DNA from: Porticoccaceae bacterium
GTDB taxonomy: Bacteria; Pseudomonadota; Gammaproteobacteria; Pseudomonadales; Porticoccaceae
NCBI GenBank assembly: GCA_024644585.1
Contig: JAHEHM010000014.1
Location: 20,324 to 62,331, forward strand
Length of the DNA: 42,008 nt
Direction of reading: 5' to 3'
This document shows positions 20,109 to 25,143 of this stretch, piece after piece. Below the pieces are notes generated by a model. The model saw only the letters and a list, made by a program, of their open reading frames with translations, did not search any database and was not told the DNA's origin. Position 1 is the first letter of the stretch. Each line of letters begins with the position of its first letter. The translations under genes and the position numbers were made by a program.

Positions 20109-20918
20109 ATGAAGCTGTTAAAAACTATTTATTTTCTTGTAATTACACTATCGCTTATAGGGTGTGGTGGCGGTGGCGGTGGGAAGGTTAGTCTGGATGA
20201 ATCAGCAGATGGTATTTGGGTTGGCGCATCTTTCAATGAAAAAAGCGATAAATCTGATATAACTTCACTTTTTTATGGCGGCAAGTATGCGACTATAAAT
20301 ACTACCGATAAAGAACTTTATAGTGGCTCATACACAATTGAAAAAGATGTCATTGCCTCTCAAAATTCAAAAAGTTTTAGATGGGATGGTTCAAAATTAG
20401 CTAATGGTTCAATTCTTGGAAAAGTAAATTCACAAAGTGTGATTGAACTGGCATTTACTGAGGATTTAAGTAATTCAGATGTTAATAACCCACAGATAAG
20501 AAATGATTATAATATGTATGAAAGAGAACTCTCTGAAAAAAACTTAAATAATAATCTTTTAAAGGGTTCCTGGACTACAAAAACACCTTTTGAGTCTTCA
20601 TCTGTTGATGAGCCTTTATATGTTTTTGCCCTTCAAAATGGCAAGCTTTCTGTCGTCAATTCTATTAATTGTTTTATAGAGGGGGAGCTTAAAATTCCCA
20701 AAGGTAATTTAAATGTTTTCGAGTTCACGCTAAAAATTTCTGGTTCTGCCTGTAATTTCAATGGAGATTATTCTGGACTTGGTTATTCTGACACCAAATG
20801 GATTGAAAAAGAGGATAGTGATGATGTGAAAATCGATGTAGAGGTCGATATGCTCACCTTTGCCTATTCAAATGATGATTTTGGTTTTGTTTTTGAAACT
20901 TATAGATTAAGTCCATGA
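20109..20918 (+). CDS. Hypothetical lipoprotein, paralogue A
   Basis: 269 aa. Signal peptide and lipobox followed by a Gly run (LSLIGCGGGGGG). Shares ESADGxWxG, SGSxxI, LxGSW and CxxxGxYSGLG motifs with the ORF at 21525-22256. Confidence 0.75.
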   Translation: MKLLKTIYFLVITLSLIGCGGGGGGKVSLDESADGIWVGASFNEKSDKSDITSLFYGGKYATINTTDKELYSGSYTIEKDVIASQNSKSFRWDGSKLANGSILGKVNSQSVIELAFTEDLSNSDVNNPQIRNDYNMYERELSEKNLNNNLLKGSWTTKTPFESSSVDEPLYVFALQNGKLSVVNSINCFIEGELKIPKGNLNVFEFTLKISGSACNFNGDYSGLGYSDTKWIEKEDSDDVKIDVEVDMLTFAYSNDDFGFVFETYRLSP

Positions 20919-21066: not shown

Positions 21067-21133
21067 GTTTTTCGAACCTTGATATATTTACTTAGGTAGA
21101 TTTAAGAGGAAATGGCGCACCCTCCGGGTATAA

Positions 21134-21206
21134 AGGCTCAATACGACTTATGCCTACGACTAATCGATTATGAGTCGACTGCTCTAACCAGCTGAGCTAT
21201 GGGCGG
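21134..21206 (-). pseudogene. Degenerate tRNA-Ile(CAU) copy
   Basis: A 52-nt block (21153-21204) matches the intact tRNA at 22903-22954 with 2 mismatches, including the whole anticodon arm and a D arm that differs only at one D-loop base. The acceptor (CCGCCCA / TGAGCCT) and T arm no longer pair properly, and there is no CCA at the expected 3' end. Confidence 0.8.
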
Positions 21207-21324
21207 TTTTCCTTTGGTGTAGTCAAATACCTATGTAATTCAATGATTTACGCAAACTACTTACGTCCAACTGATGACACCAATCTAAGTCTATTTAGAC
21301 CCCGCGTCAAGTATATTGTTACCC

Positions 21325-21354
21325 AACTGTTACCTGTACTGTACCTAATCATTA
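21325..21354 (+). repeat. Direct repeat DR-L (arm-type-like)
   Basis: AACTGTTACCTGTACTGTACCTAATCATTA. Matches 22790-22819 at 25/30 positions, with a 15-nt perfect core TACTGTACCTAATCA. Confidence 0.7.
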
Positions 21355-21524
21355 AAGCCGAATAGGGCGCAATAACAGGGGGCAGGGGTGTCTTTTGTTG
21401 CGTTTAGTTGCTACTGGTTATGTTGGGGGGTGGATTTAAGTGAATTTAGAGATTGTATCTATATTACCTGCAATATATTATTCATCTTTGAATTAATTAT
21501 AATTACCTTAAGGAAAATAATAAT

Positions 21525-22256
21525 ATGTTTATATTCAGATATATAGTTTCAATTTTGCTTGTTGCAACACTCGCATCATGTGGTGGCGGCTCAGGGAACT
21601 CAGACGTTTCAGCCAGCTCGAATAACGAATCTGCTGATGGTTATTGGGAAGGAAGAATCACTGACAGTTATGGGGCTTCATCTGAAGTAGTATTTTTTTC
21701 TAGCGGAGGAGAATTTATTGCAGTTGATGATGATAGTGATGTAATTGTGAGTGGTTCATTGAGTATAAGAGGAGACGAACTTACTTCAACAAACACTAAA
21801 CTATATGAGTATGACGGTATCTATCTTATGGACTTAGAAATTGATGGTTTTGTTAATACAAAATCACGAATTCTCGCTGACGTTATTGATGTTGAGTCTG
21901 GAGAAACAAGCTCTTTAAGTCTGGACTATGATATTTTTTTAGATGAACCAATTACTTATTCTGACTTATCTGGGTCATGGGATTTTCTTGATGACAATGA
22001 TGAATTTTATTCTGTTGATGTTGATAACAGGGGTGCCTTTAACGTTGATGTTGATGGATGCATTATTTCAGGCAAATTCTCAATACCTAACAATACAATA
22101 AGTATTATTTCCGCTGAGTTCACTGTATCTGGTGAAAGCACCTGTATTATCGGAAATTACAGTGGCCTAGGGGCCATAGTTGAGAATGAATTAGTGGCAG
22201 TAGGCATAAATAGTGAATATGCCATTGTACAGTTTGCATTCAAATCGAACCGATAA
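21525..22256 (+). CDS. Hypothetical lipoprotein, paralogue B
   Basis: 243 aa. Lipobox VATLASCGGGSG. Motif-by-motif similarity to the ORF at 20109-20918. Confidence 0.75.
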   Translation: MFIFRYIVSILLVATLASCGGGSGNSDVSASSNNESADGYWEGRITDSYGASSEVVFFSSGGEFIAVDDDSDVIVSGSLSIRGDELTSTNTKLYEYDGIYLMDLEIDGFVNTKSRILADVIDVESGETSSLSLDYDIFLDEPITYSDLSGSWDFLDDNDEFYSVDVDNRGAFNVDVDGCIISGKFSIPNNTISIISAEFTVSGESTCIIGNYSGLGAIVENELVAVGINSEYAIVQFAFKSNR

Positions 22257-22305
22257 AAACAAAACATCAAGTTATATAGTTTCCTGATGAGTCAAAGAGT
22301 GGGGG

Positions 22306-22803
22306 TTAAGGATAATCAACCTTAACCTTAGTCCCCACGCCTTTGGCATGCTCTTGCCATGTTTCAAGCATAACTTCCCTAGCCCAATCCTCATGCCCCT
22401 GCTGAACTGCTATAGCATCATGGACTGATAAAAAAACGATATCTTCTTTAATACCTTCTAAAAGGACATCCTTGAGTATTTGACCTTCTAAGTTTTGAAG
22501 ACTAATACCCCATCCCTTGAACAGTTCGAGCTTAGGGAAACGCTTTAGAGACCCTTTAATCATCCTATCAATCAAATCATCTGTGATGTTTTCTTTGTAA
22601 AGTGCCTTTCGACCTGACACCTCATTATCAGCCCCCATAGCAACTGTAATAAAGCGTTTTACAGTACTGCGACTGAGAACTTCAGACTCGTGCATAATGT
22701 CTTCATAGGGTGTCTCACCTGCATGTTCTTTAGCATTGATAGCTAGCTGAAGCCTAAGATGATTAGCATTGAAATCAACTTTACAAATTGACTGTAACCT
22801 CTA
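22306..22803 (-). pseudogene. 5'-truncated fragment of a polymerase-palm-like (family A-like) mobile-element protein
   Basis: The tracked ORF is 22306-22695. The same frame stays open upstream to a stop at 22801-22803, adding RLQSICKVDFNANHLRLQLAINAKEHAGETPYEDI. Palm-like order: VDFNANHLRLQ (A-like), KRFITVAMGA (B-like), VFLSVHDAIAV (C-like VHD). Confidence 0.5.
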
Positions 22804-22819
22804 CTGTACCTAATCAACA
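22790..22819 (+). repeat. Direct repeat DR-R (arm-type-like)
   Basis: GACTGTAACCTCTACTGTACCTAATCAACA, in the same orientation as 21325-21354. Confidence 0.7.
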
Positions 22820-22879
22820 AATAATGAATTAGGAACGCAAGGAGTTTACGTATAACTGATTGATTTACACAGGAAATAA

Positions 22880-22956
22880 TGGTGGGCCCAGTAGGACTTG
22901 AACCTACGACCAATCGATTATGAGTCGACTGCTCTAACCAACTGAGCTATGGGCCC
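22880..22956 (-). tRNA. tRNA-Ile2 (CAU anticodon, presumably lysidine-modified)
   Basis: GGGCCCATAGCTCAGTTGGTTAGAGCAGTCGACTCATAATCGATTGGTCGTAGGTTCAAGTCCTACTGGGCCCACCA. Full cloverleaf with encoded CCA; anticodon loop CTCATAA; resembles ileX. Location beside rpoD fits known gammaproteobacterial gene order. Confidence 0.93.
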
Positions 22957-22966
22957 TTTAACTTGT

Positions 22967-23206
22967 CTTTTTGCCGCTAGGCGGTGTCGCGTGCTCACAA
23001 TTCTCGATCACATACATTGCGTATGCTCACTCTAATTGCTGTGCGGCTTCTAGCCTATCAACAAAAATACTGCGTTAACTTTTGATTGCCTTTTTGCCGC
23101 TAGGCGGTGTCGCGTGCTCACAATTCTCGATCACATACATTGCGTATGCTCACTCTAATTGCTGTGCGACTTCTAGCCTAACAACAAAAATACTACGTTA
23201 ACTTTT
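22967..23206. repeat. Tandem direct repeat, two copies with 123-bp period
   Basis: Copy 1 22967-23083 and copy 2 23090-23206 match with 3 mismatches in 117 nt; the first 78 nt are identical. Each contains CCGCtagGCGG and CATACattgcGTATG inverted repeats. Confidence 0.92.
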
Positions 23207-23292: not shown

Positions 23293-25143
23293 TTATTCGT
23301 CGATAAAGCTGCGCAAGTGATCCGAGCGAGTCGGGTGACGCAGTTTACGTAGCGCTTTTGCCTCAATTTGACGAATACGCTCACGGGTTACATCAAACTG
23401 TTTGCCCACTTCTTCAAGGGTATGATCTGTATTCATATCAATACCAAAACGCATTCTTAGTACCTTGGCTTCACGAGCGGTTAGGCTGCCAAGTACGTTG
23501 CGTGTAGAGTCGGTAAGATTCGATTTAGTGGCTTCATCTACCGGCAAGGCAATAGTGGTATCTTCGATAAGGTCACCAATGTTTGCATCTTCATCTTCAC
23601 CAATGGGCGTTTCCATTGAGATGGGTTCTTTTGCAATCTTAAGCACTTTACGAATTTTGTCTTCTGGCATTTCCATGCGTTCTGCTAATTCTTCTGGCGT
23701 GGCTTCACGGCCCATTTCTTGCAGCATTTGGCGGGAAATACGATTGAGTTTGTTAATGGTCTCAATCATATGCACTGGAATACGAATGGTTCTTGCTTGG
23801 TCAGCAATTGAACGAGTAATCGCCTGACGAATCCACCAGGTAGCATAAGTCGAGAACTTATAACCGCGACGATATTCAAACTTATCGACCGCTTTCATCA
23901 GGCCGATATTACCTTCCTGAATAAGATCGAGGAATTGCAGGCCGCGGTTGGTATATTTTTTGGCAATCGAGATTACTAGTCGCAAGTTAGCCTCTACCAT
24001 CTCTTTTTTCGCGCGACGAGCCATGGCTTCACCCATAGTCACGCGGCGGTTAATATCTTTAATTTGAGCAATACTCAGCTGACTGTTAGCTTCAACCTGC
24101 GCTAGCTTTCGTTGACAGCGAACGATCTCTACTTCCTGATTTTTAAGGCCTTTAGACCAATCAGCATTACTTTCAATTAGCTGAGTAACCCATTCCATAT
24201 TAGTTTCATTGCTAGGGAAGCTTTTGATAAAGTCTTTGCGTGGCATTTTTGCATAGCGCAAGCAGAGGCGCATAATGGCGCGCTCTTCAACACGAATTTT
24301 ATCAACGGCGTTCTTTACCATGGCAATCAATGGATCGAATTGACGTGGCGTTAGCTTGAGGTATTTAAAAACATCAGAAAGTTGTTCTAGGTTTTCTTTA
24401 GAAGCTTTTCCATCGCGTCCGTAACGAGCAATACATTTTTCTGTTTTGCTCAACTGCGCTCTAATTTCTTCGAAGCGACGGTTTGCTTCTTCAGGATCTA
24501 GACCGCCTTCATTTTCTTCTTCTTCCTCTTCGTCTTCAACGACGGCTCCACCGTTGGCAATTCTTTCGGCTTCAGCGGCTTCAGCAGCTTGCTGTTGGGC
24601 TAGTGCTGAGGGCACATGCTCCATTGGGTTGAGGTAACCACTAATTAGGTCAGTTAACTTGCGTTCGCCGGCTAACACCTGATCCCATTCTGCAATAACG
24701 GCGGCGACAGTCGATGGCCAGTCAGAAACAGCTGACATTAGCTCTCGCGTGCCTTCTTCAATACGCTTGGCGATTTCAATTTCGCCTTCTCGGGTAAGTA
24801 GCTCAACAGAGCCCATTTCACGCATGTACATACGCACTGGGTCGGTTGTTCTATGCTGTTCAGATTCTACAGAGGCTAGGGCGGCTGCAGCTTCAGCGGC
24901 GGCAACCTCATCGGGAGTATTAACACCGGAAATCATCAGAAGAGATTCAGCATCAGGCGCAGTTTCAAAAACAGTGATGCCCATATCATTAATCATTTGA
25001 ATGATATCTTCTACCTGCTCGGGATCTGCAATACCTTCGGGTAGGTGATCGTTAACTTCGGCGTAAGTCAGGTAACCCTGTTCACGGCCTTTGGCAATAA
25101 GATCTTTAATTCCGGATTGCTGATTTTTTAGATTATCGCTCAT
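23293..25143 (-). CDS. rpoD: RNA polymerase sigma factor RpoD (sigma-70)
   Basis: 616 aa. Regions 1.1 to 4.2 visible: [95 protein letters not shown]. Confidence 0.98.

Follow-up and report, generated by a model that had tools for sequence, protein, structure and literature searches.

The two copies of tRNA-Ile2 beside rpoD in this bacterium very probably bracket the remnant of a small tyrosine-integrase element of a SAR92 family, one that had most of the tRNA gene in its attP and later suffered a single deletion, and whose displaced 3′ half of the tRNA has since decayed. The host is a small-genome marine bacterium of the SAR92 clade (1.4 Mb, completeness 91%), and the locus lies within a 42,008-nucleotide stretch (the window; Table 1). 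The element ends, the two tRNA copies and the truncated gene can be read directly in the DNA, as can integrases of the same family at the same tRNA in relatives. A preliminary description of the locus had proposed a decayed integrative element lacking its integrase. That proposal is supported here: integrase-bearing elements in relatives share the left end, the end motif and the target tRNA, and the deletion joint is identifiable.

The right-hand copy is intact and lies next to rpoD, as had been described, directly downstream of it. ARAGORN labels this intact CAU tRNA 'tRNA-Met(cat)', and we identify it as tRNA-Ile2 because its best matches in E. coli, at up to 87% identity, are annotated as tRNA-Ile. 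The left-hand copy is not called by ARAGORN and only just passes the Rfam tRNA model (30.5 bits, threshold 29, versus 76.1 bits for the intact copy). It matches the genome's own tRNA-Ile2 with an E value of 4.9e-20 and is therefore no chance resemblance. Both copies fall within a direct repeat of 80 nt in the same orientation (21135-21214 and 22885-22964, 85% identity), and the interval between them measures about 1.67 kb. The 52-nt block with two mismatches reported earlier corresponds to tRNA positions 3-54 (96% identity over 52 nt), and the true start of the segment is about 4 nt to the left of the 21134 originally given. The left copy has full D and anticodon stems, keeps four of seven acceptor pairs and has lost the CCA as stated, but the reported loss of T-arm pairing was slightly overstated, with four of five pairs remaining. 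A second intact tRNA-Ile2 was not seen among the matches within this genome (completeness 91%), where other CAU-like matches are 71-75% identical. Between rpoD and tRNA-Ile2, at 22956-23201, are two tandem 123-nt repeat units (94% identity) with no match elsewhere in the genome.

Table 1. Features of the remnant and its immediate surroundings, in window coordinates.
Feature	Position	Strand	Remarks
Second lipoprotein, same family, outside the tRNA copy	20109-20918	+	30% identity to inner lipoprotein
Degenerate near full-length tRNA-Ile2 copy (attR)	21130-21206	-	3-45 nearly intact, 46-77 decayed, CCA gone
Element right end	21207-21427	-	~84% identical to G064; motif common to G028 and G029
Right-end flank ATTGAATTACATAGG	21230-21244	-	inverted repeat of left-end flank
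Right end motif GGTACAGTACAGGTAACA, putative arm-type site	21328-21345	-
Lipoprotein-like gene (243 aa), candidate cargo	21525-22256	+	relative at same place beside right end in G064
Truncated C-terminal part, phrog_4756-family polymerase-like protein	22306-22794	-	listed ORF starts at 22695
Deletion joint CAGTCAAT	22787-22794	-	from alignment with relatives: G033 integrase start context CAGTCAATGG fused to polymerase-like codon ~247 (G062/G060 CAGCCAAT)
Left end motif GGTACAGTAGAGGTTACA, putative integrase arm-type site	22793-22810	-	directly before integrase start codon in relatives
Left-end flank CCTGTGTAAATCAATC	22858-22873	-	imperfect inverted repeat of right-end flank; counterpart in integrase-bearing relatives TATATAAATCA
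tRNA-Ile2(CAU), intact, reconstituted target gene (attL side)	22880-22956	-	ARAGORN, Rfam tRNA model, E. coli matches
rpoD	23293-25143	-	conserved upstream neighbour of target tRNA

The ends of the interval place it in a family of SAR92 tRNA-Ile2 elements, which we define here by a conserved left end extending to the integrase start and a right end, each bearing the motif GGTACANTANAGGTWACA. In relatives this motif is found just before the integrase start and again ~127-139 nt before the far-end tRNA copy. A scan of 50 genomes of the genus returned 11 matches in nine genomes, all at the ends of tRNA-Ile2 elements, and the reversed motif gave none across the same 50; the genome under study has exactly two, one per element end. 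Viral contigs yielded 22 matches; tRNA-Ile2 accompanied none of them and an integrase match, weak at 22%, accompanied just two, and these are probably chance occurrences. On the left, the sequence following the remnant's tRNA aligns with the G033 element up to the integrase start with a score of 41 (500 shuffles: mean 3.0, maximum 8). On the right, similarity to G064 extends over 269 nt at ~84% identity and runs into part of the tRNA copy. The motif pair lies between two short flanks that are inverted relative to each other, CCTGTGTAAATCAATC and ATTGAATTACATAGG in complement. Judging from their positions, the motifs and flanks may represent the arm and core sites bound by the integrase.

Integrases of a single tyrosine family are encoded just downstream of tRNA-Ile2, on the same strand, in six genomes (G004, G008, G015, G028, G033 and G060). 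Among named SAR92/Porticoccaceae records, all seven integrases with an intact start begin 92-94 bp after tRNA-Ile2, again on the same strand. As a point against the favoured reading, no integrase-bearing element of the family was found with both ends on one contig, as the contigs break inside the elements, and in the G015 element, which has an integrase, a far-end tRNA copy was not detected. More distant relatives of the integrase sit beside tRNA-Arg, tRNA-Val and tRNA-Gly genes, one of them with a 40-bp tRNA-Arg repeat ~3.3 kb away. A related integrase in Rhodocyclaceae lies between two complete tRNA-Val genes (L096, 9845-9919 and 13756-13831) whose similarity to each other is confined to positions 27-75, and this locus is possibly another element carrying a whole tRNA.

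The target itself is an integration hot spot in SAR92. A tRNA-Ile2 match is present in all 50 genomes of the genus, if weak or partial in some fragmentary assemblies, and wherever the retrieved locus reaches rpoD, that gene precedes the tRNA and the downstream content is variable. Displaced tRNA copies occur in 12 of the 50, the remnant's own genome included (G000, G003, G008, G019, G023, G025, G027, G028, G029, G059, G060 and G064), some of them in tandem (G008, G060 and G064), with spacers that differ. Most of these copies cover approximately positions 26-77, and a few, including that of the remnant, also span the 5′ half. A displaced copy of about positions 26-77 is the usual mark of integration with a crossover in the anticodon region. 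Neither of the patterns that the preliminary description had named as contrary to an insertion, namely two functional tandem tRNA-Ile genes with no insertion history or one spacer content conserved throughout the clade, was seen in relatives; the element spacers differ between genomes. In G018, three tandem 113-nt units follow the tRNA, each ending in its last 16 nt (L019, 2794-3133).

As described earlier, a lipoprotein gene and a truncated ORF lie between the two copies, on the plus and minus strands, respectively. The latter encodes 129 aa, matches the C-terminus of phrog_4756 (E 3.5e-9) and shares 70% identity with the C-terminal region of an intact 407-aa protein of G062. The remnant reads GGTTACAGTCAATTTGTAAAGTTGAT at the joint, where G033 has its integrase start, GGTTACAGTCAATGGCTACA, and the intact polymerase-like genes have GGTCAGCCAATCTGCGAAGTAGAC (G062) and GGTCAGCCAATCTGTGAAGTTGAC (G060). 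One deletion between CAGTCAAT and CAGCCAAT, removing the integrase together with the first ~246 polymerase-like codons, would thus account both for the missing integrase and for the truncation of the ORF, and may have occurred by recombination between these short near-repeats. The intact order of tRNA, integrase and polymerase-like gene is preserved at tRNA-Arg(TCG) in G056 and G062. In the tRNA-Arg(TCG) elements of two SAR92 relatives that have an integrase and an intact polymerase-like gene (L206 and L208), no far-end tRNA copy was found. Three short pieces matching the polymerase-like C-terminus occur within 10 kb in G025 (L063, 7164-7277, 8531-8626 and 16318-16422), a pattern that suggests repeated insertions or recombination in one region. 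Intact relatives of the polymerase-like protein contain a pair of conserved aspartates and an RxxxK motif, arranged in the same order as in TV-Pol polymerases (PMC2579912). Profile comparison was not significant (hhalign E 0.055-0.17), no credible hit came from a PDB profile search, and we use the TV-Pol name only tentatively. Pfam returned nothing for the 129-aa ORF, its protein had no match in the phage collection, and a scan of the viral contigs with the polymerase-like alignment found no relative.

The most distinctive feature of the remnant is that its displaced copy is not confined to the 3′ end. For the retained 5′ half, the preliminary description had offered either a tRNA-carrying element or a plain tandem duplication of the tRNA; the former is favoured by our results and the latter is disfavoured. 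Duplication of tRNA-Ile2, followed by decay of one copy and the drift of unrelated genes into the space between, might be suspected from the extent of the copy, which spans almost the whole gene, and from the tandem repeats near the tRNA and the recurring tRNA-tail units of G018. We nevertheless regard it as very improbable. The remnant's copy, like the far-end copies of G028, G029 and G064, is preceded by the element right end and not by the rpoD-tRNA spacer. Furthermore, the interval has one end motif at each end and an integrase start context beside the tRNA, and relatives show the displaced 3′ halves typical of integration. Fresher far-end copies are seen in G029, where a perfect 3′ half is joined to a 5′ half matching from position 3 onwards, and in G028, where 77/77 positions match, with element sequence upstream. 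As a point against the tRNA-carrying reading, positions 1-2 are unpaired in the far-end copies of G029, G064 and the remnant, and only G028 has a perfect copy; the carried 5′ half is therefore near full-length and is not a functional gene. The simplest reading of these sequences is that duplication of the 5′ half reflects the presence of most of the tRNA gene in attP, and we infer such an attP for this particular element.

In the history that we favour, the integrase would have carried out recombination between attP and the anticodon stem-loop region of the tRNA-Ile2(CAU) gene next to rpoD. With most of the tRNA gene in attP, rather than its 3′ end alone, both ends of the insertion would have become tRNA-like. 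The near end would be the working gene, made of the host 5′ half and the element 3′ half, and the far end would join an element-borne 5′ half to the displaced 3′ half, which, being free of selection, could then decay. The working tRNA would now need the element's 3′ half. In the event of excision the host 5′ half would be left with the decayed 3′ half as its partner, giving a broken tRNA-Ile2, for which reason the remnant is probably locked in and fixed.

An attP with most of a tRNA gene would not be unique to this element, since complete or near-complete tRNA-Ile2 genes are also present in eight viral contigs (L233, L234, L238, L240, L242, L243, L247 and L248), covering 74-77 positions (4-77 or 1-77) and flanked left and right by phage DNA. 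In seven of the eight the same sequence lies on both sides of the gene, and two further contigs begin inside it. Among the contigs examined there are genes for integrase, T7-like RNA polymerase, portal or tail fibre, with an integrase and the RNA polymerase close by in several, and the tRNA match suggests a SAR92-type host for them. No paper that treats SAR92 together with phage, integrase and tRNA came up in a full-text literature search. These contigs raise the idea that the remnant derives from a T7-like temperate phage using tRNA-Ile2, which we consider extremely improbable: their flanks and integrases are unlike those of the remnant's family (27-30% integrase similarity), the interval contains no RNA polymerase, portal or related phage structural gene, and the remnant's ends match the SAR92 element family instead.

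Decay of the displaced copy is strikingly lopsided, with 1 mismatch in 43 at positions 3-45 versus 12 in 32 at positions 46-77 (Fisher P = 8e-5). Such asymmetry is not expected if both halves had drifted equally after a single insertion, and may point to gene conversion or to recombination with an older copy that had already decayed. One refinement of the main explanation, compatible with it and a reasonable possibility if still the lesser one, is that the far-end copy is a hybrid between the 5′ half of a recent element and the decayed 3′ half of an older insertion, the integrase having joined the new and old sites with removal of the older element. The split in decay near position 45 would be consistent with this, as would the tandem displaced copies in other genomes and the observation that in G064 the tRNA similarity ends after position 45, though its right end is common with the remnant. 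The degenerate copy is also flanked by two homologous lipoprotein genes. The inner one fits the role of element cargo, since a relative occupies the corresponding position in G064 and the gene is seldom encountered elsewhere in the genus; Pfam returned nothing for it. The second, just beyond the copy, is possibly cargo of an older insertion. Against such layering, neither an older tRNA relic nor an end motif turned up beyond the second lipoprotein. The same relic search in the G015 element was negative.

Integrase-less segments between tRNA-Ile2 and displaced copies occur at six loci: L021 1097-2908 (G008), L017 78-912 (G064), L039 3034-3786 (G059), L037 2617-3740 (G019), L036 3241-3716 and L046 2641-3108. 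They measure 0.47-1.12 kb, mostly contain a single ORF antisense to the tRNA and, in G008, form a tandem. The inverted ends of several are GTCAATCGAC-like and resemble the attP flanks of marine phage contigs. One could imagine the tRNA-Ile2 locus as an integron-style platform, in which integrases of resident elements or T7-like phages act in trans to pile up integrase-less single-gene cassettes (0.57-1.09 kb; G008, G064 and G059), along with remnants like the present one, behind the tRNA, and in which elements with a near-complete tRNA lock in once the displaced half decays, but we think this unlikely.

The remnant that we favour is best compared with the tRNA-targeting tyrosine-integrase islands catalogued by Islander, where the site is centred on the anticodon in 2083 of 3919 cases and where the rules specify a displaced end (3′) fragment, an interval of 2-200 kb and an integrase within it (PMC4383910). 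It resembles them in its intact tDNA, its same-strand displaced copy downstream, its anticodon-centred site and the tRNA-adjoining integrase of its relatives. It differs in spanning 1.67 kb, in having no integrase and in a copy that covers the 5′ half and lacks an intact 3′ end; strict application of the rules would reject it on size, integrase and fragment type. We call it a remnant and not an island because the integrase kept by seven named relatives has been deleted here. Tycheposons are cargo-carrying elements of 4-200 kb with a border tRNA and a tyrosine recombinase (PMC10872708). The likeness, drawn from that published description, extends to the streamlined marine host, the border tRNA, the tyrosine recombinase of relatives and the cargo gene, but at 1.67 kb and with no recombinase the remnant is much smaller and falls outside the definition. 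In T7-like cyanophages and pelagiphages that integrate in tRNA genes the attP likewise matches a host tRNA, the sites cited being fragments of ~36-46 bp (PMC8776855, PMC3861242). The viral contigs described here use tRNA-Ile2, several carrying it complete, and the remnant is set apart from such phages by the integrases of its family and by its flanks. With TV-Pol and A-family mobile-element polymerases (PMC2579912, PMC10061031), the polymerase-like family shares the order of motifs and an association with integrases, unlike them without a significant profile match. Recognition of tRNA-Ile2 beside rpoD identifies a recurrent hot spot in a streamlined marine clade, and points to islands of a class that standard finders throw out, those that lack an integrase and whose duplicated tDNA is near full-length. 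The lock-in proposed above, in which the host tRNA would depend on an element half, would offer a simple and testable route from selfish insertion to permanence. The remnant is thus ordinary in kind among tRNA-targeting islands, and its unusual part is the near full-length displaced tRNA copy.
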